From the NCBI GenBank assembly GCA_001795385.1, contig MGOU01000030.1, positions 1-52,118 of the forward strand: DNA of 52,118 bases, written 5' to 3'. This document shows, one piece after another, positions 1 to 43,638 of this stretch; positions within the stretch are counted from its first letter, which is position 1, and every line of letters begins with the position of its first letter. Under the pieces are notes generated by a model. That model ran no database searches. It was not told the origin of the DNA and saw only the letters and a program-made list of their open reading frames with translations. Position numbers and translations under genes: made by a program. This DNA comes from Clostridiales bacterium GWD2_32_19. Lineage in GTDB: Bacteria > Bacillota > Clostridia > Lachnospirales > UBA12420.

Positions 1-531
1 TTCAACCTGGGTGCTTCTAAGTGTTCAGATAAAGTTATTAAAAATATAGGAATAGCAAAAAAATATATTAAAAATGTAGGTATTGAAACTCCAATGACTC
101 CTGAGTTTTCCGAAGCTTTTTTTAAGAAAAAGCAAGCGATCTTAGAGACAAAACTCGATTTTATTAATTGTGCAGAATTACATTTAAATGAGAATAACAT
201 AGACAATTATTATGGGGAAAACATGTATATTGCAAGACATGGCTATATATCTCCAATTTGGAGTAGGGAATTAACTCTGAAATTCATGAAAATAGCCGAT
301 GAAGAAAAGTGGGATTTAGTAGTTCATGATTGCTCAAACTATACAAAATTTGCTAGAGATTTAAATTTGAGCAGCAAAGAGGGTAAGTGGTTTGGAGCAA
401 GTCAATATGCCTGTGAGTTTTCAAGGATTCCATACGAAGTATTTTTACCAATATTGCGTGATGACAATTTCAAATTTTTAACTGAAGAAGAATTGCCTGA
501 TGGTTATAAACCAGGAGAGATGATTTTTTAG
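1..531 (+). CDS. Radical-SAM-like protein, C-terminal part (gene enters from the left edge)
   Basis: The reading frame is open from base 1 and runs 176 codons to TAG at 529-531, so the gene begins outside the window and the internal ATG at 94 should not be taken as its start. The visible part has the pattern of the C-terminal half of a radical-SAM family TIM barrel: a segment reading KKYIKNVGIETPMTPEF, then LDFINCAELHLNENN, then WDLVVHDCSNYTKFARDL. In known families comparable segments follow the CxxxCxxC cluster domain. That cluster would lie upstream and cannot be seen, so the family call is recognition of the tail only. Substrate unknown. Confidence 0.5.
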   Translation, partial: FNLGASKCSDKVIKNIGIAKKYIKNVGIETPMTPEFSEAFFKKKQAILETKLDFINCAELHLNENNIDNYYGENMYIARHGYISPIWSRELTLKFMKIADEEKWDLVVHDCSNYTKFARDLNLSSKEGKWFGASQYACEFSRIPYEVFLPILRDDNFKFLTEEELPDGYKPGEMIF

Positions 532-576
532 AGAGTCTTATCATTGCAATATAAATGGAATTTGAGGTGAAATGTT

Positions 577-954
577 ATGGACAAATATACAAAAGAAGAA
601 TTATTGGAAGCGTTACGAGTTGTATCTTCAACTATCAGTAAATGTGAAAAAATACAGCCCAAATTTGAGGAGGGTATCTCTCAGCACACACTCCTTAAGA
701 ACAGGATAAAAGCGATGTATATTTCAAAATTATTGATAACAGGTGAAAATATTATGGACAAATATACAAAAGAAGAATTGTTAGAAGCGATATCACCCGT
801 ATCTTCAGTTATCAGCAAATGTGAAAAAGCACAGCTAAAATTTGTGAAGGGTACCTTTAATCACACCCGCTTTAAGAACATAATAAAAGCAATGTATATT
901 TCAAAATCGTTGATAATAAATGAAGTTAGGAATATGATAGAGGGTCAGGTTTAA
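577..954 (+). CDS. Small conserved hypothetical protein, in-frame fusion of two tandem gene copies
   Basis: A 125-residue protein made of two copies of a domain of about 60 residues. Copy 1 starts MDKYTKEELLEALRVVSS at residue 1 and copy 2 starts MDKYTKEELLEAISPVSS at residue 60. Each continues with ISKCEK, a KF(E/V) stretch and a KAMYISK(L/S)LI tail. Each copy has a Shine-Dalgarno-like GAGGTG or AGGTG a few bases before its ATG (577 and 754). The second ribosome site now lies inside the frame, so the copies probably were separate genes until the first stop codon was lost. Short proteins with this ISKCEK...KNRIKA pattern are familiar in Clostridia but have no function known to me. The second ATG could still be used. 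Confidence 0.65.
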   Translation: MDKYTKEELLEALRVVSSTISKCEKIQPKFEEGISQHTLLKNRIKAMYISKLLITGENIMDKYTKEELLEAISPVSSVISKCEKAQLKFVKGTFNHTRFKNIIKAMYISKSLIINEVRNMIEGQV

Positions 955-1165
955 TTTATTCACTTATCAAGAATAAATTATGATTGAATCGAGTAAAAGC
1001 ACATATAACGGAAGATGCAAATTACGGATGATCATGGTAAACAATTGTAATTCTGGCACAAAGATATTGCAAAACAACGGGCACAGAATTAGCAAACAAA
1101 TTGAATATACCAATATCAATGATGTCAAAGATAATAGCAAAAAAGCCTGTGAATTGATATTTTTA

Positions 1166-1790
1166 TTAAATTAAATATACCTCAAATTCAGAAAGACCAA
1201 TATTATAACCTGCACCTTCAACTAATGTTAGTTTAACCCAACTAAATGTTTTTCTAGGGAAATTTATAATATAAGGAGAACCATTGTTAACTAGGGGACC
1301 AATTCCTATATTGGAACCGTTACTAAAGGTTAAAGTAGCTCTTATAATTTGTTCAGTAAAGTTAGGTCTGTCGTATAAAATAATTCTATTAGCTTCAATG
1401 GGGGTTTGCCATGAAAGTTGTACCCATGCTCCAGCTATTTCTCCAAGAGTAGCCCATTCATTGGAATAGAAGTTAAATAAATCATTTCTATAAGGAAAAC
1501 CAACTATTAGACCATTAATAACATTATTACAATATTGTTGTGTATCGTTATTTTGAGAAGATGCAGTTACTGTTGCGTTATATGATAAACTTGACATAGT
1601 TTTGCACCAGAAGACTTCATCACTTTTGATAAATTTAGTAAAAGTTGAAACATGGTTATCATAAATAACAAAGGCGTGTGCCTTGTAGTAACCATAACTA
1701 ATTTTACATCACTACCATTATTTACTGCTCATCTTATTACTCCAGCACAACATATAGTTTCATCATCTTCATGTGGAGAAAAAAATCATT
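1166..1790 (-). pseudogene. PIG-L deacetylase / galactose-binding-like domain fusion, internally deleted
   Basis: Minus strand. The clean part (1597 down to 1166) encodes 143 residues of a jelly-roll galactose-binding-like domain: SYNATVTASSQN, EWATLGEIAGAWVQLSW, NRIILYDRPN and a final GLSEFEVYLI. The same frame stays open upstream of its ATG (AHAFVIYDNHVSTF then FIKSDEVFW), which resembles the end of a PIG-L (LmbE) deacetylase domain. Further upstream, at about 1786-1680 in another frame, lies the PIG-L N-terminal zinc motif FSPHEDDETICCAGVI, then an in-frame TGA, then AVNNGSDVKLVMVTT. The N- and C-terminal ends of one fusion protein therefore survive while most of the catalytic domain is missing. 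No convincing ribosome site precedes the ATG at 1597, so the remaining domain may not be translated. Confidence 0.7.
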
Positions 1791-1971
1791 ATATCATTCA
1801 TTTAAGTTCACTCCTATATTTTTATAGATTTTTTATAGAACCTATTAAGTATTGGTTTATATTATATACAACTACCTAGGTTATGTTACTACTCTACATA
1901 AATAATAAAGATAGGATAACATGAAAAAATATAAAAATACACCTTATAAAAGTGGCACAATTAACTTATCT

Positions 1972-2011
1972 AATAATAAAAAGAAAGCACTAGTGCTTTC
2001 TTTTTATTATT
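1972..2011. terminator. Perfect palindromic terminator after the LysM gene
   Basis: A 40-base perfect palindrome (20 + 20) centred on CACTAGTG, with A-rich and T-rich flanks that give a U-run on either strand. It includes the stop codon of the minus-strand LysM gene at 2007-2009. It would end that transcript and could also act on plus-strand transcripts. Confidence 0.8.
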
Positions 2012-2558
2012 GTGTTCCCATTCCAGGTATACATATTCTTTGGCCAACTACTAATCTATTAGGGCTTAGGTATGGGTTTACTCTTAAGATTTCAGAAATA
2101 GAAGTAGCATATCTATCTGCTATTTCTGAAAGTGTATCACCTGGATTTACAATGTATGCTACCGTAGTGTGAGGACATGGACCCGGAACTGGGCCAGGAC
2201 CTGGACGGGTTGAACCTGGAATACATATGATCATACCAGCATATAGTTGATTTGGTCGTAACCCGGGGTTAGCTATTCTTATTTCAGTTACAGTTACATT
2301 AAAAGATCTTGCTATTTTATTTAAAGTATCGCCTGCTTTGACTCTATAACGATCTCTTGGCCTACATGGAGGAACAGAAGCTCCTATTCTAGGAATACAA
2401 ATCGTTTCCCCAACGCGAAGGCGAGAATAGTAATTCAAATTAGGATTTACAGCTAATATTTGTCGAACGGTAACATTAAATTTGCGAGCAATACGAATTA
2501 GATTATCATTTTGTTGAATTGTATACTGAAAAGCATTTCTAGGACATTCTCTTGGCAT
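2007..2558 (-). CDS. Triple LysM-domain protein
   Basis: 183 residues with three LysM peptidoglycan/chitin-binding domains at about 10-56, 70-113 and 133-178. Each has the D(N/T)L..IA...(N/T) start, an NP.L centre and a (V/A)G..ICIP end. A Pro/Gly linker (RPGPGPVPGPCP) separates domains 2 and 3. There is no signal peptide, membrane segment or catalytic domain, as in many small clostridial LysM proteins that bind cell wall or the spore surface. The ATG at 2558 is preceded by GAGGTG at good spacing. The gene stands alone, with a strong palindromic terminator at its 3' end. Coat or wall location is an inference from the family. Confidence 0.85.
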   Translation of the reverse strand: MPRECPRNAFQYTIQQNDNLIRIARKFNVTVRQILAVNPNLNYYSRLRVGETICIPRIGASVPPCRPRDRYRVKAGDTLNKIARSFNVTVTEIRIANPGLRPNQLYAGMIICIPGSTRPGPGPVPGPCPHTTVAYIVNPGDTLSEIADRYATSISEILRVNPYLSPNRLVVGQRICIPGMGTQ

Positions 2559-2682
2559 TTATTTCACCTCACTTCTTATTGTATAATTTATATTATGATT
2601 TTAAATTTTCGAAGTGCATGTCTTATAAAAATGTGTTAAGCTATTGTTTGCATTGGCATAAGAAAAAATATAAGTTCTTTTG

Positions 2683-2711
2683 TTGCAAAAACTAGATAAA
2701 AATGGTATAGT
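2683..2711 (+). promoter_or_regulatory. Putative sigma-A promoter for the DUF1456 gene
   Basis: TTGCAA at 2683-2688, a 17-base spacer, TATAGT at 2706-2711, about 40 bases before the start codon at 2753. Confidence 0.5.
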
Positions 2712-2752
2712 GAAAAATATAAAGTGAGACAAGTGAAGAGAGGAGAGTGAAT

Positions 2753-3277
2753 ATGAATAACATTGATAGATTAATTAGATTAAGATATGCATTAGATATA
2801 AGAGATACAGATGTTGTAGAGATGTTTAAACTTGGAGGTACCCTAATAACAAAAGAAGAAGTAAAGGAAATATTTGCAAGAGGGAAAGATTCTTATGATG
2901 ATGAAGATAGTGATTTTGATATGATAGATAAAGATATATTTAGTAGTAATAAGTTTGATTCATTTTTAAACGGATTAATTATATTTAAACGTGGAAAGCA
3001 AGATTTGAGTAAAGAAGAAGTTGAAAGACCTAAAGTACCATTGAAGGATCATGAAGGTATGAATAACATCATGCTTAAAAAAGTAAAAATTGCGTTGTCA
3101 CTTACGAGTGATGATATAATCGACATATTAGAAGAAGTAGGAATTATCTTGACGAAAGGCGAATTAGGAGCAATATTTAGGAAAGAAGGACACAAAAATT
3201 ATAAAGAATGTGGAGATAAATATGCTAGAAATTTCTTGAAGGGATTGGCTTTGAGATATAGGAGGAATAATTTATGA
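2753..3277 (+). CDS. DUF1456 family protein (YehS-like)
   Basis: 174 residues from ATG 2753, which sits behind AGGAGA; an in-frame GTG at 2747 overlaps that ribosome site and is less likely. The protein is two copies of the DUF1456 repeat. Repeat 1 reads RLIRLRYALDIRDTD, EMFKLGG, ITKEEVKEIF and FLNGLIIFKRGK. Repeat 2 (about 105-174) reads KKVKIALSLTSDD, IILTKGELGAIFRKEGHKNY and FLKGLALRYR. E. coli YehS has the same two-repeat build and a similar length. Function is unknown. It is followed after 45 bases by the Nudix-methyltransferase gene, so the two are probably cotranscribed. Confidence 0.85.
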   Translation: MNNIDRLIRLRYALDIRDTDVVEMFKLGGTLITKEEVKEIFARGKDSYDDEDSDFDMIDKDIFSSNKFDSFLNGLIIFKRGKQDLSKEEVERPKVPLKDHEGMNNIMLKKVKIALSLTSDDIIDILEEVGIILTKGELGAIFRKEGHKNYKECGDKYARNFLKGLALRYRRNNL

Positions 3278-3322
3278 TGCCAAAGGTTAAGTTTGAGATT
3301 AAAAAGGAATGGAGGCTATAAC

Positions 3323-4603
3323 ATGAGTGAAGAATTAGATATATACGAATGGCAAGGTAATGATTTAATGCATATTGGTGTAATGGATAAAAGAGAAGCT
3401 GAACTTAAAGGCATATGGCATAAGATATCGAGAGTATATCCTATTAAAAAGATAAATGGTGAGTACTATGTTATTCTTCAAAGAAGAAGCAAACATAAAA
3501 AGATAGGTGCATTGAATTTTTCTATTGCTGTTAGTGAACATGTAAAAGCTGGGGAAAGTGATGTAGATGCATGTATTAGAGGGATTACGGAAGAGTTCGG
3601 TATAAATGTAGAAAAAGATAAACTAGAAAAAGCTTATAATATAAAATTTATGTTTGATAAAGGAGATATAAAAGAGAGAACTTATTGTACAACATATGTT
3701 TTAGAATTCGATAATGATTTAAAAGATTTAACTCTTGAAAAAAGCGAAGTAGAAGGTGCATATATTGCTTCAATAAAAGACCTAAATGATATGTTTGAAA
3801 AGAGGATAGATAATGTTGAAGTAAGGGGATTAAGTCTAAATGAAGATGAAACAGAGTATATAAATGATATAACAACTATAAACATAAACAGTTTTGTTGA
3901 TTTTAACTTTTATAAGGAAGATTTCTCTAAATTGAAACTATATATTGATAAGATACATATATATGACAAAGATAGGCAGATGCAATGTTGGGAAAATGTC
4001 GCTGATGATGTAAGATTTTATCAAGAAATAGATGAAGAATTATTTAAAAAATATATAAGCAAGGATGATAAAGTTCTGGATTTTGGATGTGGATATGGTA
4101 GAACACTGTCTAAGCTAAAAGAAATTGGATATAAGAACCTCGAAGGAATAGATTTCTCAAAGAAAATGATTGAACGTGCAGAGAGAGAAACGAAAGATAT
4201 AAAATACATAGTATGGGACTCTGAGAGTAAGCTGAATAAAAATTGTTATGATGTAATTATTTTAATTTTTGTATTTGCATCTGTATACACTGATGAAGAG
4301 CAAGATAAAATATTAGTAGAGTTAAAAAGTGCCTTAAAACCGGATGGAATAATATTTATGTGTGATGCTCTTTTAGGAGAAGATGAAAGAAATATTGCAA
4401 GATATAAAGAATTTTTTGATAAATATGGTGTATATGGTACTTTTGAAACTGATAATGGGATGATAGCAAGACATTTAGATTACACGCGTCTTGAAGAAAT
4501 CAAGAACAGATTTGAAAATATAAATTACAAAGAGCAAGTAATAAAAACCCAAAATGGAAATTCGGTGAGAAGTTTTACATTTATAGGTAGGAATAAAAAA
4601 TAA
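3323..4603 (+). CDS. Nudix domain fused to a class I SAM methyltransferase
   Basis: 426 residues from ATG 3323 (GGAGG upstream). An alternative upstream start in the same frame at 3293 lacks a ribosome site. Residues 1-170 form a Nudix domain of the isopentenyl-diphosphate-isomerase-like type (IWHKISRVYPI, QRRSKHKK, then the box at 72-94). The box is degenerate: the first Gly is Glu72 and the RE pair is R86-G87, while E78, E90-E91 and G93 are kept. Residues about 235-425 are a Rossmann methyltransferase with motif I VLDFGCGYGRTL near residue 251 and a later CYDVIILIFVFASV strand. The substrate is unknown. The two activities may act in sequence on one small molecule, or the Nudix part may have become a binding domain. 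Confidence 0.8.
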   Translation: MSEELDIYEWQGNDLMHIGVMDKREAELKGIWHKISRVYPIKKINGEYYVILQRRSKHKKIGALNFSIAVSEHVKAGESDVDACIRGITEEFGINVEKDKLEKAYNIKFMFDKGDIKERTYCTTYVLEFDNDLKDLTLEKSEVEGAYIASIKDLNDMFEKRIDNVEVRGLSLNEDETEYINDITTININSFVDFNFYKEDFSKLKLYIDKIHIYDKDRQMQCWENVADDVRFYQEIDEELFKKYISKDDKVLDFGCGYGRTLSKLKEIGYKNLEGIDFSKKMIERAERETKDIKYIVWDSESKLNKNCYDVIILIFVFASVYTDEEQDKILVELKSALKPDGIIFMCDALLGEDERNIARYKEFFDKYGVYGTFETDNGMIARHLDYTRLEEIKNRFENINYKEQVIKTQNGNSVRSFTFIGRNKK

Positions 4604-4606
4604 ATT

Positions 4607-4770
4607 AATCTCTTTGGGTTTAATTACCCGTCGGCTTGCCGCGTTCTTGTCATTGCGAGGAGGTTCTTTCGACGAAGTAATCTCGTTTTTGAAAGATGAG
4701 ATTGCTTCGCAAAAAACGCTCGCAATGACAACATGATACCCCGTCGGCTTGCCACGGGGAGATTCATTAA
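4607..4770. repeat. Dispersed palindromic repeat, copy 1
   Basis: 164 bases starting directly after the preceding stop codon. The outer arms are CCCGTCGGCTTGCCGCG and CCCCGTCGGCTTGCCACGGGG. The inner arms are GTCATTGCGAGG / CTCGCAATGAC and GAAGTAATCTCG / GAGATTGCTTCG. The ends are AATCTC... and ...GAGATT. It is about 95% identical to copy 2 at 10694 and related to copies at 21145 and 29255. It encodes nothing convincing and looks like a non-autonomous palindromic element. Confidence 0.85.
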
Positions 4771-4817
4771 TATATTAGATTATAAAGGGTAAGGAAATTT
4801 GTAAATTGGGGGTTGCT

Positions 4818-5705
4818 ATGAAATTTTATGTTTCAAAATACTGTGGATTCTGTTTTGGCGTGTCTTTGGCCGTGAAAGCAGCTTATGATAATTTGGGTGG
4901 TAGCAAAAAATTATTAATGTATGGAGATGTGGTACATAATCATGTTGTAATTCAAGATTTGGAATCCGCTGGTGCAAAGGTTATTGATGATATTAGTGAA
5001 ATTGATGAGTATGACAGTGCAAAAGTGCTGATTCGAGCTCACGGTGTATCAAGGAAAGAAATTTTTGATTTGCGGAGAAAAAATATAGAAGTGATTGATA
5101 AAACATGTCCGAAGGTTAAAAAAGTACATGACATTGTTGAGGCTGCATCAGAAAAGGGTCTTGATATTCTAATAGTTGGAAATTCAAATCATCCAGAAAT
5201 AGTCGGAATTGTCGGCTGGAGCAGTACAAAGGTTGTTGTTATTAAAGATTTAGAGGATGCAAAAGATAAAATTCCTGCTACGAAGTTTAGTGAAAATGGT
5301 GTATGTATAGTTGTGCAGACAACCTTTAACTCTAAAAATCTGGAAGGAATATACGAATATTGCAATCAACATATACCGAATATTGAATTTCACAACACAA
5401 TATGTAATGCTACAGCCAATAGACAGGACGAAATAAGGGAATTGGCGCAGAAGGTAGAGTTTGTTATTATTGTGGGTGGCAAAACAAGCTCAAATTCTAT
5501 TAAATTATATGAAATAGCATCCGATTACTGCAATTATACTCAGCATATTGAAACAGAAGATGAGATAGATTTTTCTATTGTCGATAAGGTTTCTTCTATT
5601 ACTCTTAGTAGTGGTTCTTCTACACCAGACAGCAGTATCAATGCTACGGTTGCGGCCATTCAGGAATATTGTAAGAAAAATAATGTTTCAGTAGAAATGA
5701 TGTAA
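4818..5705 (+). CDS. ispH: 4-hydroxy-3-methylbut-2-enyl diphosphate reductase (IspH/LytB)
   Basis: 295 residues. This is the last enzyme of the MEP isoprenoid pathway; it reduces HMBPP to IPP and DMAPP with a 4Fe-4S cluster. The three cluster cysteines are visible: C12 (CGFCFGV), C97 (DKTCPKV) and C196 (NTICNAT). Also present are H40 (VVHN), H75 (RAHGVS), the catalytic Glu in NHPEI (E127) and the C-terminal GSSTPD loop at 266-271. Start: ATG 4818 follows a GGGGG ribosome site at 5 bases; the TTG at 4806 in the same frame overlaps that site and is rejected. There is no RpsA-type fusion, unlike some clostridial IspH. The gene is followed by its own terminator. Confidence 0.95.
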   Translation: MKFYVSKYCGFCFGVSLAVKAAYDNLGGSKKLLMYGDVVHNHVVIQDLESAGAKVIDDISEIDEYDSAKVLIRAHGVSRKEIFDLRRKNIEVIDKTCPKVKKVHDIVEAASEKGLDILIVGNSNHPEIVGIVGWSSTKVVVIKDLEDAKDKIPATKFSENGVCIVVQTTFNSKNLEGIYEYCNQHIPNIEFHNTICNATANRQDEIRELAQKVEFVIIVGGKTSSNSIKLYEIASDYCNYTQHIETEDEIDFSIVDKVSSITLSSGSSTPDSSINATVAAIQEYCKKNNVSVEMM

Positions 5706-5756
5706 TAAGAAATGTTATAGTAAAATAGTTGAATTTCTGGATAAATAAATAAAGAA

Positions 5757-5795
5757 TACATTTCCTCATTAAAATGTTGAGAAAAGTATTTTTTT
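5757..5795 (+). terminator. Rho-independent terminator after ispH
   Basis: Imperfect hairpin TACATTTCCTCA / TGAGAAAAGTA with a 6-7 base U-run directly after it. Confidence 0.6.
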
Positions 5796-5882
5796 ATGTT
5801 AAAATATCGTTAAGCGAGAGTAAAAGTAAGTTTGTTTTAGTGTCAAATGTGAAAAAATATTATATTATTGGGGGGAAAGATT

Positions 5883-6299
5883 ATGGGAATTACATTAGTT
5901 CCGGCTGTAAGAGCCTTTATATTAAACAAAGGTAAAATTTTAATAATAAGAGAATCTTCAGACTATAAAGGTGGTATAAATGCTGGAAAATATGATGTTG
6001 TAGGTGGTAATATAGAGGTAGGAGAAAAATTAAATGAGAGTTTTAAAAGAGAAGTAATGGAAGAGACAGGATTGACTATTGAAATAGGAAAACCATTTTA
6101 TGTAGGAGAATGGAACACAATTATTAATGATAAAGAAATGAAAATAGTAGGAATGTTTTTTGAATGCTTTACAAATGAAGATGAAGTTAAGCTGAGTAAA
6201 AATCATGATAAATATGCATGGATTGATCCTAAAGACTATGTAAATTATGAATTAATATGTGAAATACGATTAGCATTTGAGCAATACCTATACAGATAA
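5883..6299 (+). CDS. Nudix hydrolase
   Basis: 138 residues from ATG 5883, with GGGGGG six bases upstream. It is a single Nudix domain with a complete box at residues 42-64: G42, E48, R56-E57, E60-E61 and G63. These residues bind the metal and place the catalytic water. Such proteins hydrolyse a nucleoside diphosphate linked to another group (dNTPs, damaged nucleotides, sugar nucleotides). The sequence does not show which substrate. It is first of three consecutive Nudix genes (the third is broken), with 53 bases to the next, so the first two are likely one transcript. Confidence 0.85.
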   Translation: MGITLVPAVRAFILNKGKILIIRESSDYKGGINAGKYDVVGGNIEVGEKLNESFKREVMEETGLTIEIGKPFYVGEWNTIINDKEMKIVGMFFECFTNEDEVKLSKNHDKYAWIDPKDYVNYELICEIRLAFEQYLYR

Positions 6300-6352
6300 G
6301 AAAGATAAGTAAAAGTAGGGATTTGTATCTTCAAGGAAGAGAGGTGTTGCTT

Positions 6353-6799
6353 ATGAGAAGAAGAGCTCAAGGTATAATAATACGTAATAACATGGCATTG
6401 TTTGGATATGGCAAAAGTAATAATGAATTTAAACACGCTTTTATAGGTGGAGGGATAGAAGGACAAGAAGAACCAGAAGAAGCATTAATTCGAGAGCTAA
6501 GAGAAGAGACTAATATTGAAGGGAAAATAATATTTAAATTTAAAAATGAAATAAAAGAAGAAAGGTATACCTTTTTAGTTGATATTGGGGACCAACAATG
6601 TATTCTAGGATTTGATCCAGAAGAGGTTAGCTTACCTGATGAGGAAAAGTCTTTACAACAACTTATTTGGATACCATTGAAGGAAAAAGATAGATTCACT
6701 TCTATTGATATGAGTTATTTTAAATTATTACTCGAGGAATGCAAAGGAATAAATTATTATCCAGACTGGTTATCTGAATTGAAAGAATTAGTTACATAA
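6353..6799 (+). CDS. Nudix hydrolase
   Basis: 148 residues from ATG 6353, behind GAGAGGTG. An in-frame TTG at 6323 has no ribosome site and is rejected. The Nudix box spans about residues 33-55 (G33, E39, R47-E48, E51-E52), with Asn at 54 in place of the last Gly, a common tolerated change. The N-terminus MRRRAQGIII and the acidic C-terminal half suggest a nucleotide pyrophosphohydrolase of unknown specificity. It lies between the Nudix gene at 5883 and the broken Nudix gene at 7025. Confidence 0.85.
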   Translation: MRRRAQGIIIRNNMALFGYGKSNNEFKHAFIGGGIEGQEEPEEALIRELREETNIEGKIIFKFKNEIKEERYTFLVDIGDQQCILGFDPEEVSLPDEEKSLQQLIWIPLKEKDRFTSIDMSYFKLLLEECKGINYYPDWLSELKELVT

Positions 6800-6887
6800 T
6801 TTATAACAAATAGCAGAATAAAATTGGCTGTAATAATTATCTGTATAGTTAGATGTATAAAGCAATCTTGTGTTTTGTATTAGAATG

Positions 6888-24131: not shown

Positions 24132-24164
24132 ACAAAGAATTCTATGAGTCAGAATAGTAAATAT

Positions 24165-24432
24165 AAACATTTTATTCAGCGAGTCGACAGGTGGTGTGAG
24201 GTCGGTATAAGTGTTATATTGAATGGTCTGATGAGAAGTGAGGCGAAATCATTAATTTGAAATTAGCTGCAACCGTGGGCTTTACGTTATAAAAGCAGGA
24301 TATCGAGTAGCCAAGAGTTATTTCCGTATCTGAAAAAGAGGGTTTGCCATATCGGTGAACTAAATAAAGGTGGCACCACGAGAAGTCTCGTCCTATACTA
24401 CATGATCATGTAGTATAGGACGAGATTTTTTT
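24165..24432 (+). ncRNA. T-box leader of trpS
   Basis: The leader contains the conserved T-box sequence AAGGTGGCACCACG at 24367-24380, whose bulge reads the free CCA end of tRNA. It is followed by a perfect 20-bp terminator hairpin (24386-24425) and T7. The G of GTCTCG lies next to the T-box as expected for antiterminator/terminator exchange. A GAATGG sequence at 24221-24226 offers a UGG specifier codon, which fits control by uncharged tRNA-Trp and the downstream trpS; its exact place in the specifier loop is inferred. Stem I seems short. Confidence 0.92.
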
Positions 24433-24526: not shown

Positions 24527-24558
24527 GAATAAAAAATAAGAAAATGGAGGTAATAGTT

Positions 24559-25554
24559 ATGAAAAGAATATTAACAGGAGATAGACCGACAGGAAAGTTA
24601 CACATAGGACATTATTTTGGGTCCTTAAAAAATAGAGTAAGAATGCAAGATGAGTATGAAACATTTATAATGATAGCTGATGTTCAGGCACTTACAGATA
24701 ATTTTAATAATCCGGATAAAGTTAGAAGTAATGTATATGAAGTTTTATTAGATAATCTAGCAGTAGGTATTGATCCAAGAAAGACAAAGATATTTATACA
24801 GTCAATGATACCGGAAATCTCGGAATTGACGGTGTTTTATTCCAATTTAGTTACAATAGCCAGACTAGAAAGGAATCCTACAGTTAAGCAAGAGATTAAA
24901 CAAAAGAAAGATTTATTTGGTGAGAGTGTGACATATGGATTTTTAGGTTATCCTGTAAGTCAGGCAGCGGATATAACAATACTAAATGCGGATGTAGTGC
25001 CCTGCGGAGATGACCAGTTACCGATGCTTGAACAGACAAGAGAGATAGTAAGGAAGTTTAATAGTATATATGGAAATACATTTAATGAACCAGAGCCAAT
25101 AATAAGCAATTTTCCCAGAGTAAAAGGACTTGATGGAAGTAGCAAGATGGGGAAAAGTTTAAATAATGCAATATATCTAGATGATGATAGTGAAACTATA
25201 AGGCAAAAGGTCATGGGTGCAATAACTGATGAACACAAAATAAAGAAAGATGATAAGGGTAATCCAAATAACTGTACGGTTTACTTCTATCACGAAATGT
25301 TTAGTCAAAATGATACTGAGGATATCTGTAATGAATGTAAAAAGGGAACAAGGGGATGTGTAGATTGCAAAAGACAACTTGCTGATAACATAATAAAGGT
25401 ATTAGGGCCAATAAGAGAAAAAAGGATGGAACTACAAAACAATAAAAAACTACTTGATGAAATTTTGATGGATGGATATATGGCTGTAAAACCTATAGCA
25501 ACAGAAATGATGAAAAAGGTAAGAAACATGATGAAGATAGATTATTTTAGTTAG
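24559..25554 (+). CDS. trpS: Tryptophanyl-tRNA synthetase
   Basis: 331 residues. Class I synthetase: HIGH at 15-18 within DRPTGKLHIGHYFGSL, and the KMSKS loop as KMGKS near 196. The segment CNECKKGTRGCVDCKRQL near 260 is a four-cysteine motif found in one TrpRS subgroup of Firmicutes and may hold a metal. Start ATG 24559 follows GGAGG; an in-frame ATG at 24544 overlaps that ribosome site and is rejected. Transcription is controlled by the T-box upstream, so it rises when tRNA-Trp is uncharged. Confidence 0.95.
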   Translation: MKRILTGDRPTGKLHIGHYFGSLKNRVRMQDEYETFIMIADVQALTDNFNNPDKVRSNVYEVLLDNLAVGIDPRKTKIFIQSMIPEISELTVFYSNLVTIARLERNPTVKQEIKQKKDLFGESVTYGFLGYPVSQAADITILNADVVPCGDDQLPMLEQTREIVRKFNSIYGNTFNEPEPIISNFPRVKGLDGSSKMGKSLNNAIYLDDDSETIRQKVMGAITDEHKIKKDDKGNPNNCTVYFYHEMFSQNDTEDICNECKKGTRGCVDCKRQLADNIIKVLGPIREKRMELQNNKKLLDEILMDGYMAVKPIATEMMKKVRNMMKIDYFS

Positions 25555-40877: not shown

Positions 40878-41738
40878 ATGCAATTGTTTGATTTAGATGT
40901 AGCAAAGAAACTTAAGATTGCAAAGTCGACTCTAGATGGGTTAGAACTTATAGAAAAATACATTGAAAATGGTAAGAGTAAAAAGTTAACATTTAGCAGC
41001 AAGGATGGTACAAAGCTTGTAGGAATATTAGAAACTTCACACGAATCAACTGACGCATGTGTTATATTGTGCCACGGATTTAGATCAGGCAAGGATGATT
41101 GCGGTCATCTGGTTAGGGCTGCAAAAATTATAAGTAATGGATATGCGGTATTTAGATTTGACTTTAGGGCTCATGGTGAAAGTGAGGGTATTGATTATGA
41201 AATGACAATAGAAAAGGAAGTAGAAGATCTTACAGCAGCAGTTGAACTAGTTGAAAGTAAAGGATATAAAAATATAATATTGTTAGGTTCTAGTTTTGGT
41301 GGAGGAGTAGCTTCTGTATATACTGTAAGAAATGAAAGTAAAATAAAAAAACTTATACTTTGGTATGCACTTATAGATTATGATATATTTTTTAGTAGTG
41401 GATCCTTTGGTGAAAAAATTAGAGAAGAAGCTTTTAAAAATGGGTATGCTGAAATTGTTAGTAAAACAACTGGAAAAATATTTAGGTTAGGTAAATGTGT
41501 GTTTGAAGAAGCAGCAAAACTTAATATTGGTAAGGACTTAAGGAAATTAAATATACCCATATTATTTGTTCACGGAACAAACGATGAGTCAGTAACATAT
41601 GAATCGTCAGAAAAACATTCAAAGTTTTGCAAAAATGCTAGATTAGAAACAATAGTAAATGGTAAACATGGTTTTCGTGACTCAGAGGAGGGCCTAAACC
41701 AGGCAATAAAAGCGACAGTGGAGTTTATAAGAAAATGA
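40878..41738 (+). CDS. Alpha/beta hydrolase
   Basis: 286 residues, ATG 40878 behind GGGGGG. Core fold: ACVILCHGFRSGKDD with the oxyanion HG, VFRFDFRAHGESEG, nucleophile elbow GSSFGG (Ser about residue 140), a later Asp in HGTNDESVTY, and a His in NGKHGFRDSE. These give the full Ser-Asp-His triad. The closest general group is the serine aminopeptidase S33/esterase type. Substrate unknown. It seems to be single, with the thrS promoter starting 45 bases after it. Confidence 0.88.
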   Translation: MQLFDLDVAKKLKIAKSTLDGLELIEKYIENGKSKKLTFSSKDGTKLVGILETSHESTDACVILCHGFRSGKDDCGHLVRAAKIISNGYAVFRFDFRAHGESEGIDYEMTIEKEVEDLTAAVELVESKGYKNIILLGSSFGGGVASVYTVRNESKIKKLILWYALIDYDIFFSSGSFGEKIREEAFKNGYAEIVSKTTGKIFRLGKCVFEEAAKLNIGKDLRKLNIPILFVHGTNDESVTYESSEKHSKFCKNARLETIVNGKHGFRDSEEGLNQAIKATVEFIRK

Positions 41739-41782: not shown

Positions 41783-41811
41783 TTGACAAAACTTTCTAAA
41801 TTTGATAATAT
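41783..41811 (+). promoter_or_regulatory. Promoter of the thrS leader
   Basis: TTGACA at 41783-41788, 17 bases, TAATAT at 41806-41811. The transcript would begin near 41818. Confidence 0.8.
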
Positions 41812-41845
41812 AGGAGCAACTTTAAAAATCAGGAGGTGTTTTGCA

Positions 41846-41923
41846 ATGGAAAGAATAATAGTTATAACGACCACAACCATTAACTCTTTTTGCTGTGCAT
41901 CAAACACCTGTGTAAGGTTTTAG
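41846..41923 (+). CDS. Threonine leader peptide of thrS (candidate attenuator)
   Basis: 25 codons, ATG 41846 behind a near-perfect AGGAGGTG. Residues 8-11 are four consecutive Thr (codons ACG ACC ACA ACC) within MERIIVITTTTINS, with a fifth Thr at 21. The downstream gene is threonyl-tRNA synthetase. The stop TAG (41921-41923) overlaps AGTAACT (41922-41928), which can pair with AGTTATT (41957-41963), the 5' arm of the terminator that follows. A ribosome that finishes the peptide would cover AGTAACT and let the terminator form. One stalled at the Thr codons would leave it free, so transcription reads through into thrS. Inferred from sequence; very similar in logic to enteric thrL. Confidence 0.75.
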   Translation: MERIIVITTTTINSFCCASNTCVRF

Positions 41924-41953
41924 TAACTACACAATACTGATGGTAATAGCATG

Positions 41954-41985
41954 AGGAGTTATTCTGTATAGGATAATTCTTTTTT
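41954..41985 (+). terminator. Attenuator terminator of thrS
   Basis: GAGTTATTC (41956-41964) pairs with GGATAATTC (41971-41979), 9 bp with two G-U pairs and a six-base loop, followed by T6. Its 5' arm is shared with the competing pairing to AGTAACT at 41922. Confidence 0.75.
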
Positions 41986-42014
41986 ATTACAAATTTTAAA
42001 GGAAGTGGTGTAAA

Positions 42015-42077
42015 ATGAGAAGGTGCGTTAAAGAATTAAAATTCTTTTCTTCTGAGATAACCTGTTCTTTGGTATAG
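42015..42077 (+). CDS. 20-residue ORF between attenuator and thrS
   Basis: ATG 42015 has GGAAGTGGTG upstream; peptide MRRCVKELKFFSSEITCSLV, stop TAG at 42077, 55 bases before thrS. It holds only one Thr. AAAGAATT and AATTCTTT inside it form a small hairpin. The position after the terminator parallels the small ORF between the T-box terminator and trpS at 24467. Confidence 0.35.
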   Translation: MRRCVKELKFFSSEITCSLV

Positions 42078-42132
42078 TAACTTAATTAATAGCAACAGCT
42101 ATAAAACCAAAAGCCAAAGGGGAGATAGATTT

Positions 42133-43569
42133 ATGAAGAATAGAGAAGATATAGTAAGGAATATAGAAAGCAGGTATTTAGTACTACTAGAGAATGGTAA
42201 CGAGATTAAACTCGACCTAGATAATAAAGAAGAAGTAGTAAGTGAATTAAGTAATATAGGAGATGAGCAACTCAGAGCGTATGTTTTATCTGAGGAGATG
42301 AAGTCGGATAATAACCTAGAGGCACCATCAATTAAGGCTATGAGACGACTTGAGTATGTAGATTATGAGGAAGCAAGTGATGCAGGGCATTTTAGAATGT
42401 ATCCAAACGGCCAACTTATATTTGATTTACTCAAAGACTGGATGGATGAGATAGCTAAAAACAGATTACAAGCAATGCAAATAGAGTCACCAGTTATTTA
42501 TAATTGGGATGATAAGGAGATAAGGGAGCAGGCAAGTTCGTTCCATGAAAGACATTATATAGTAAAAGTTCCTGATGATCCGAGTAAGGAGTTTATACTA
42601 AGATTTGCTGGAGACTTTGGACTGTTTAAAATGTTTAAGCAGGCTAATTTTAGCTACAAGATGTTACCAATCAGAGTTTATGAATTCTCTAAGAGTTTTA
42701 GATATGAGAAAAGAGGGGAGTTATCTGGACTGAGGAGACTGAGAGCTTTCCATATGCCAGATATACACTGCTTTTGCAAGGATTTAAAGCAAGGAATTGA
42801 AGAGTACAAGAACTTATACAAAAGATATGCCGACCTAGCAAACGGTGTAGGGATAAAGTACGCAGTAGTGGTGAGAGTGGTTGAAAGCTTTTATGAAGAG
42901 TATAAGGAAGACTTACTTGAACTAGCTAGATACTCGAAGGCTCCATTGTTTGTAGAATGTTTATCAGAGATGAAACACTACTGGGCTATAAAGCACGAGT
43001 TTCAATCTATAGACAGTATAAATGGCAATCAACAATTATCAACAATCCAATTTGATGTGAAGGATGCAAAAATATACGGTATAAACTATGTTGATGAAAA
43101 TAGTGAAAAGCAAGGCTGTATAATATGTCATTCAAGTATAGGAAGCGTGGAAAGATGGATCTACGCAGTACTTGAAGAAGCACTTAAGAAAGAAAAACCA
43201 GGATTACCTTTATGGTTATCGCCAGTGCAAGTGAGGGTTATACCAGTAGCAAATGATAAACATTTAGAATTTTGCAAGAAACTGCATATGGAAGGTATTA
43301 GATATGATATAGATGACCGAGATGAAAGATTAGGTCGCAAAATAGCGAAAGCTAATCAAGAATGGGTACCATATGTTTTGGTTGTAGGAGACAATGAAAT
43401 AGAATCAGGAAAATATAGTATTCAGATACGCGGAGAAGAAGATAAACGAGAGATATCGCTAGACGAGCTTGTGGCTGAAATAAAAGAAAAATGCGAAGGT
43501 ATGCCATATAGAAATATAGCAATGAGTAAGTATCTGAGTAAGAGACCTATTTTTGTAGGGGCTGTGTGA
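42133..43569 (+). CDS. thrS: Threonyl-tRNA synthetase, archaeal type, without N-terminal editing domain
   Basis: 478 residues. The class II core at about 80-350 reads FDLLKDWMDEIAKNRL, then motif 2 RVYEFSKSFRYEKRGELSGL followed by RRLRAFHMPDIH, and motif 3 CHSSIGSVERWIYAVLEEA. This pattern (RGEL.GLRRLRAF.MPD.H) is that of archaeal rather than bacterial ThrRS. The anticodon-binding domain follows (LPLWLSPVQVRVIPVA, GIRYDIDDRDERLGRKI, YVLVVGDNE). Archaeal ThrRS has an N-terminal editing domain of about 140 residues; here only about 80 unrelated residues precede the core. H212 and H333 fit two zinc ligands. The position of the third, a Cys in the family, seems to be Asp161 (RFAGDFGLF). ATG 42133 has GGGGAG. 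Confidence 0.85.
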   Translation: MKNREDIVRNIESRYLVLLENGNEIKLDLDNKEEVVSELSNIGDEQLRAYVLSEEMKSDNNLEAPSIKAMRRLEYVDYEEASDAGHFRMYPNGQLIFDLLKDWMDEIAKNRLQAMQIESPVIYNWDDKEIREQASSFHERHYIVKVPDDPSKEFILRFAGDFGLFKMFKQANFSYKMLPIRVYEFSKSFRYEKRGELSGLRRLRAFHMPDIHCFCKDLKQGIEEYKNLYKRYADLANGVGIKYAVVVRVVESFYEEYKEDLLELARYSKAPLFVECLSEMKHYWAIKHEFQSIDSINGNQQLSTIQFDVKDAKIYGINYVDENSEKQGCIICHSSIGSVERWIYAVLEEALKKEKPGLPLWLSPVQVRVIPVANDKHLEFCKKLHMEGIRYDIDDRDERLGRKIAKANQEWVPYVLVVGDNEIESGKYSIQIRGEEDKREISLDELVAEIKEKCEGMPYRNIAMSKYLSKRPIFVGAV

Positions 43570-43590: not shown

Positions 43591-43638
43591 CTCAAGCAAG
43601 AAGTCGTATAAATAAACGATTTTTTGCTTGAGGTTTTT
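43591..43638 (+). terminator. Terminator after thrS, related to the ABC leader terminator
   Basis: CTCAAGCAAGAAGTCGT pairs with ACGATTTTTTGCTTGAG, then GTTTTT. The core AAGCAAG-AGTCGTATAA...AACGATT...TTGCTTG is shared with the terminator at 21423-21475, although the flanking genes are unrelated. Confidence 0.85.

Follow-up and report, generated by a model that had tools for sequence, protein, structure and literature searches.

The window analyzed here, a 52,118-nucleotide stretch of DNA from Clostridiales bacterium GWD2_32_19, makes up contig C30 of a genome of 1.97 Mb and holds a 394-nt leader region flanked by an alpha/beta hydrolase gene (40878-41738) and a threonyl-tRNA synthetase (ThrRS) gene (42133-43569). 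The first-pass annotation had placed in this leader a promoter, a ribosome site, a short peptide with a run of Thr codons, a stop codon overlapping AGTAACT and a terminator, and all of these were found where it had put them. The elements, with the RNA segments assigned on folding, are the following.

41783-41811, + strand: sigma-A type promoter, TTGACA-17-TAATAT, 10/12 matches, with TG preceding the -10 element
41831-41836, + strand: Shine-Dalgarno sequence (SD) AGGAGG of the leader peptide, 9 nt upstream of the ATG at 41846
41834-41863, + strand: segment 1, the SD region and the 5' part of the leader ORF; predicted partner of segment 2 (ViennaRNA)
41846-41923, + strand: leader peptide ORF of 25 codons, MERIIVITTTTINSFCCASNTCVRF, read from the sequence; translation predicted
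41867-41878, + strand: putative regulatory Thr codons 8-11, ACG ACC ACA ACC, at the apex of hairpin 1:2
41875-41909, + strand: segment 2, with two predicted partners: segment 1, giving termination, and segment 3 (via 41881-41902), giving antitermination
41938-41961, + strand: segment 3, the predicted antiterminator 3' strand, the last 9 nt of which (GAGGAGTTA, 41953-41961) are the terminator 5' arm
41953-41985, + strand: AU-rich terminator-like hairpin, 41953-41965 with 41970-41982, and U6 at 41980-41985
42133-43569, + strand: thrS2, auxiliary archaeal-type ThrRS of 478 aa, matching PRK03991 and TIGR00418

As can be seen, a short ORF with four consecutive Thr codons and a strong SD lies between promoter and terminator and directly upstream of a ThrRS gene, an arrangement that argues for attenuation and in which the ORF, judged from its sequence, would provide the run of cognate codons. 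Its stop codon TAG (41921-41923) overlaps AGTAACT (41922-41928). The terminator stem is AU-rich, has a folding energy of -11.3 kcal/mol and was missed by a consensus scan demanding 3 G-C pairs; its weakness counts against attenuation.

Competing folds and ribosome position

In ViennaRNA folding, segments 1 and 2 form a long hairpin (41834-41909) that acts as a preemptor and sequesters the SD when the leader is untranslated. The pairing of GGTGTTTTGCA, over the ribosome site, with the 3' part of the ORF, which the first-pass annotation had listed in addition to its antiterminator, proved real and belongs to this hairpin. The favoured antiterminator pairs 41881-41889 (TAACTCTTT) with 41953-41961 and is extended by 41891-41896 with 41946-41951 and by 41898-41902 with 41938-41942, to ~20 bp in total, its 5' strand (41881-41902) beginning just past the Thr codons. 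In the folding model the leader is a four-segment device of classical logic, in which 1:2 with 3:4 would give termination and 2:3 antitermination.

A different antiterminator had been envisaged at first, with AGTAACT at the stop codon paired to AGTTATT (41957-41963). Possible on paper, this pairing is disfavoured in folding: when enforced it gives -13.6 vs -16.3 kcal/mol for the best fold of the transcript without the terminator 3' arm, and -14.0 vs -26.4 kcal/mol for that with the arm. A fuller form of this idea keeps the same elements, adds an outer stem (CUGUGCA 41893-41899 with UGUAUAG 41965-41971) and lets a ribosome at the stop codon set the switch. The pairing does exist and can be extended in this way to two 7-bp stems, but it is energetically worse in every transcript tested and the 41881-41961 pairing is much stronger, so that we consider this version very improbable. 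We also considered an outer terminator stem, GTAATAG:TTATTAC (41943-41949 with sequence following the U-run), and accepted no role for it, since polymerase would have stopped before reaching this position 3' of the U-run.

The effect of ribosome position was modelled by folding the RNA downstream of the ribosome, with the leading edge set 12 nt past the first base of the A-site codon. In this energy model the terminator forms with a probability of 0.06-0.14 as long as the A site has not moved past Thr codon 8. The value rises to 0.46 at codon 8.7 (about 0.5 near codon 9) and to 0.99 at codon 9.7, and is 1.0 beyond that and with the ribosome at the stop codon. It is likewise 1.0 without a ribosome, because hairpin 1:2 then preempts the antiterminator. 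The flip falls within the Thr run (codons 8-11) and stays there when the assumed leading edge is changed by 3 nt; by the same model, stalling at codons 10-11 would not antiterminate, the flip being at codons 9-10. The earlier proposal that a ribosome at the stop codon acts by covering AGTAACT does not agree with this outcome, since the modelled flip comes earlier, already inside the Thr run, where the ribosome leading edge covers 41881-41889.

The stalled-state value was matched by 11 of 1000 dinucleotide shuffles. Among 1500 shuffles of 41846-41952 a low stalled value was seen in 27, and the whole pattern, that is a terminator probability low when stalled but high in all three other states (codon 11, stop codon, untranslated), in 2. 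Computationally, then, the antiterminator is exclusive with the terminator and dependent on ribosome position, and the preemptor hairpin 41834-41909 gives termination without translation. These being equilibrium energies on naked RNA, the switch is supported rather than proven.

A second thrS2 leader and the T-box contrast

Clostridium hydrogenum carries the only other intact thrS2 homologue found, with a protein 54% identical. Its leader (2686-3001 of locus L006) has a TTGACA-18-TATAAT promoter (12/12 matches), an SD, a leader ORF MRKILFITTMKTSYKKNIICFFDCSGFVTYQ (start MRKILFITTMKT...) with Thr at codons 8, 9, 12 and 29, and a strong terminator, 12 bp plus U-run, immediately upstream of the thrS2 ribosome site. 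The pairings form a chain: TTGATTGTTCAGG:CCTTGAACAATCAA, then AACCTTGAACAATC:GGTTGCTCATGGTT, then CTCATGGTTTAAAT:ATTTTAAAGCATTAGAG, which holds the terminator 5' arm, and then the terminator itself. Thr runs and competing arms in homologous leaders are what the first-pass annotation had proposed to look for, and this leader has Thr codons, a terminator and competing pairings. In the transcript without the 3' arm, the modelled probability of a sequestered terminator arm falls from 0.71 for A sites at codons 6-19 to 0.21 for those at codons 21-33, a difference reached by 10 of 500 shuffles. In the transcript with the 3' arm the terminator always wins at equilibrium (0.94-0.97), and therefore the decision there must be kinetic.

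The two leaders share a common design and no convincing sequence similarity (n = 2 intact leaders), and a three-way DNA alignment of leaders was not meaningful. The first-pass annotation had suggested that the leader was possibly acquired along with the archaeal-type gene; the shared design would fit such joint inheritance with later drift as well as two separate origins. In the sister species UBA12072 thrS2 has lost its 5' part and follows a HelD-like helicase gene (1-6801 of locus L007 / 4290-5404 of locus L009); the remnant is recognisable from about residue 184-212 onward. The DNA upstream of this remnant holds no recognisable leader, its local alignment to the window leader scoring below shuffles (53 vs 61 for the shuffle mean). 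The short ORF MKRMLSITD in this DNA was weighed as a candidate leader peptide and not accepted. The gene is rare: the window genome, the UBA12072 remnant and C. hydrogenum are its occurrences in ~1,790 partly overlapping genome searches. A search of the genome_contigs set gave 2 matches, plasmids and IMG/VR viral contigs gave none, and no further homologue was present in the order, class, phylum and Clostridiaceae samples. This sporadic pattern fits an optional, laterally moving gene.

With the second leader in hand, the possibility of no attenuation at all can be weighed. Six instances of an SD, an ATG and three Thr codons occur on the forward strand of the 1.97 Mb, from which arithmetic gives a chance of ~5e-4 per 150-nt leader, so that its presence here exceeds chance expectation; several such sites in genome G001 resemble starts of longer genes. 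As this control indicates that the combination arises several times per genome by chance, and as the terminator is AU-rich and escaped a standard scan, one could take the ORF for a chance occurrence or a small functional peptide, the hairpins for fortuitous, and thrS2 for constitutively expressed through a leaky weak terminator. The joint location of the elements, the flip matching the Thr run, the shuffles and a same-design leader in another genus all stand against such an account, and we regard it as distinctly unlikely.

In Firmicutes, T-boxes usually control the genes of aminoacyl-tRNA synthetases. Searched with the RF00230 covariance model at E up to 1, the two thrS2 leaders gave no T-box match. 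The same genome holds a bacterial-type housekeeping thrS on contig C13, the leader of which matches the T-box family (RF00230), as does that of the C. hydrogenum housekeeping thrS. Within the window a T-box (24135-24398, RF00230, 106 bits) lies upstream of ORF 24544-25554, whose HIGH- and KMGKS-like motifs suggest a TrpRS; the trpS T-box that the first-pass annotation had set against the Thr leader is thus real, and the contrast it drew is sustained, more tellingly by the T-box that the genome's own housekeeping thrS carries. Its title might have been taken to hint at a sole ThrRS; the archaeal-type gene is a second copy.

Taken together, the elements, the fold model and the second leader uphold the original proposal that a ribosome-mediated Thr attenuator precedes the archaeal-type ThrRS gene, and we consider it highly probable that the leader regulates a standby ThrRS as a trp/his-type transcription attenuator responsive to Thr-tRNA charging. 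We infer its use in vivo, the direction of its response and its biological trigger, which would be Thr shortage or ThrRS inhibitors such as borrelidin. In the proposed mechanism, an untranslated leader would pair segment 1 with segment 2, leaving segment 3 free, and the terminator 3:4 would form. With ample Thr-tRNA the ribosome would clear the Thr codons and cover 41881-41889, and the terminator would again form. With poorly charged Thr-tRNA the ribosome would stall at the first Thr codons (8-9) and hold segments 1 and 2 apart; the 2:3 pairing (~20 bp) would then take the terminator 5' arm and RNA polymerase would enter thrS2. ThrRS2, unlike the housekeeping ThrRS and maybe insensitive to some of its inhibitors, would restore charging. 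Next to the weak window terminator, it counts against attenuation that the only two intact leaders do not align, that stalling at codons 10-11 would leave the modelled terminator in place, and that the C. hydrogenum effect is confined to RNA without the terminator 3' arm. In B. subtilis, moreover, RNA polymerase outruns the ribosome (review PMC7858274), which by analogy would hamper attenuation unless the polymerase pauses. A working clostridial attenuator would bear on polymerase-ribosome coupling outside Proteobacteria because 'runaway transcription' of the B. subtilis type should weaken such switches.

The auxiliary enzyme, its possible triggers and related systems

The archaeal-type label given earlier to the downstream ThrRS was borne out: ThrRS2 scores 481.3 bits against PRK03991 / NF003068 (archaeal), slightly under the curated cut-off of 484, vs 343.5 against TIGR00418 (bacterial). 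The PRK03991 match spans model positions 149-612 and comprises only the tRNA-synt_2b (catalytic) and HGTP_anticodon domains, and the archaeal N-terminal editing domain was not found among the domain and profile matches; the unmatched model positions 1-148 are what we take to be the site of that domain. Alignment to solved bacterial ThrRSs places Asp161 at the zinc-ligand Cys (Cys334 in E. coli), with both zinc-ligand His kept (H212, H333), so that the Cys-His-His set is incomplete; C. hydrogenum ThrRS2 also has Asp at this position and keeps the two His. Met208 and Ser335 align with positions Q460 and A592 (human numbering). Archaeal ThrRSs are reported to resist borrelidin, and the changes held to contribute include Q460 to Met and A592 to Ser in the same numbering (PMC4389257). 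An AlphaFold model of ThrRS2 built from two sequences had a mean pLDDT of 38.8 and was set aside.

These features raise the question of what the switch would respond to. It could be a drug-inducible resistance device, the same switch being triggered by a ThrRS inhibitor, e.g., borrelidin, with thrS2 as the insensitive replacement. Judged by sequence, the archaeal type and the residues Met208 and Ser335 at borrelidin-resistance positions would suit this, as would the sporadic occurrence of thrS2 and its truncation in the sister species, as expected of an optional gene, and the precedent of Streptomyces trpRS1, reportedly indolmycin-resistant and under ribosome-mediated attenuation. Beside thrS2, however, nothing could be recognised as a biosynthetic cluster, a resistance neighbour or a mobile element, and Thr shortage alone explains the leader, which leaves resistance possible though doubtful. 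Were the trigger indeed a ThrRS inhibitor, thrS2 would also be an inducible self-protection gene.

Alternatively, ThrRS2 might replace the housekeeping enzyme under zinc shortage or another condition that disables it, induction proceeding via falling Thr-tRNA charging and not via Zur. Asp at the zinc-ligand Cys in both proteins and the absent editing domain point this way, in parallel to Anabaena thrS2, which is editing-defective and induced by low zinc (PMC4787780). An Asp-His-His site can still bind zinc, though, and the Anabaena enzymes retain their zinc ligands; we think this trigger unlikely. Confidence in these readings overlaps because the inhibitor and zinc versions use the same switch and differ only in trigger. 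A broader picture, which we offer tentatively and on the strength of sequence comparisons, would be that of an inducible inhibitor-proof ThrRS, laterally acquired, archaeal-type, without an editing domain and with an altered zinc site, whose Thr-leader switch might answer an inhibitor (borrelidin/obafluorin type) or metal loss disabling the housekeeping ThrRS; standby genes of Firmicutes may repeatedly have come under attenuation rather than T-box control.

Several known systems share parts of this design. In E. coli, the Thr-rich thrL leader of thrABC serves threonine biosynthesis and senses Thr and Ile, and pheM-pheST is a synthetase operon under attenuation that senses Phe. The window leader resembles these in its Thr-rich peptide (thrL), its synthetase target (pheST) and its 1:2, 2:3, 3:4 logic, and differs in that they are proteobacterial, with thrL for biosynthesis and pheST for Phe. 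It has in common with the T-box of Firmicutes thrS/thrZ that uncharged tRNA(Thr) would give more ThrRS by transcription antitermination; there, in contrast, the RNA reads the tRNA directly and without a peptide, and both thrS2 leaders are free of a T-box. Vecchione and Sello (2010, cited in PMC4787780) are said to have described that Streptomyces coelicolor trpRS1, an auxiliary indolmycin-resistant TrpRS, is under ribosome-mediated attenuation. The two cases are alike in joining an auxiliary synthetase to a leader peptide rich in the cognate codon; trpRS1 concerns Trp in Actinobacteria, whereas the window case concerns Thr in Clostridia and an archaeal-type enzyme lacking the editing domain.

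Closer in phylogeny, bacilli hisZ and hisS* have His leader peptides (Naville and Gautheret 2010, PMC2965389), and here too a duplicated synthetase-type gene of Firmicutes has a leader peptide while its paralogue keeps the T-box; hisZ and hisS* are His-specific paralogues of one family, unlike the second enzyme in the window, which is of another, archaeal type. His attenuators of the his operon occur in Peptostreptococcaceae (including C. difficile), Lutispora and the B. cereus group (PMC9413887). The clostridial ones likewise combine a codon-run leader peptide, antiterminator and terminator, yet they serve a biosynthetic operon and His, not a synthetase. A Thr leader for an auxiliary ThrRS is a well-supported new example of a known switch, in a setting where T-boxes prevail; the searchable literature, outside which most subscription papers lie, yielded no Thr leader peptide in front of a ThrRS gene. 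One genome appears to answer one question twice, its housekeeping ThrRS gene carrying a T-box and the archaeal-type one a Thr leader.

Two further features were noted around thrS2. Downstream of the terminator and ahead of thrS2 sits another short ORF, 42015-42077 (MRRCVKELKFFSSEITCSLV), with a good ribosome site; it contains a single Thr codon, its stop, like that of the first ORF, overlaps an AGTAACT (42076-42082), and a counterpart is absent in C. hydrogenum. Downstream of thrS2, an intrinsic-terminator-like hairpin (43591-43638, CTCAAGCAA...TTGCTTGAG, then a T-run) suggests a single-gene transcript.
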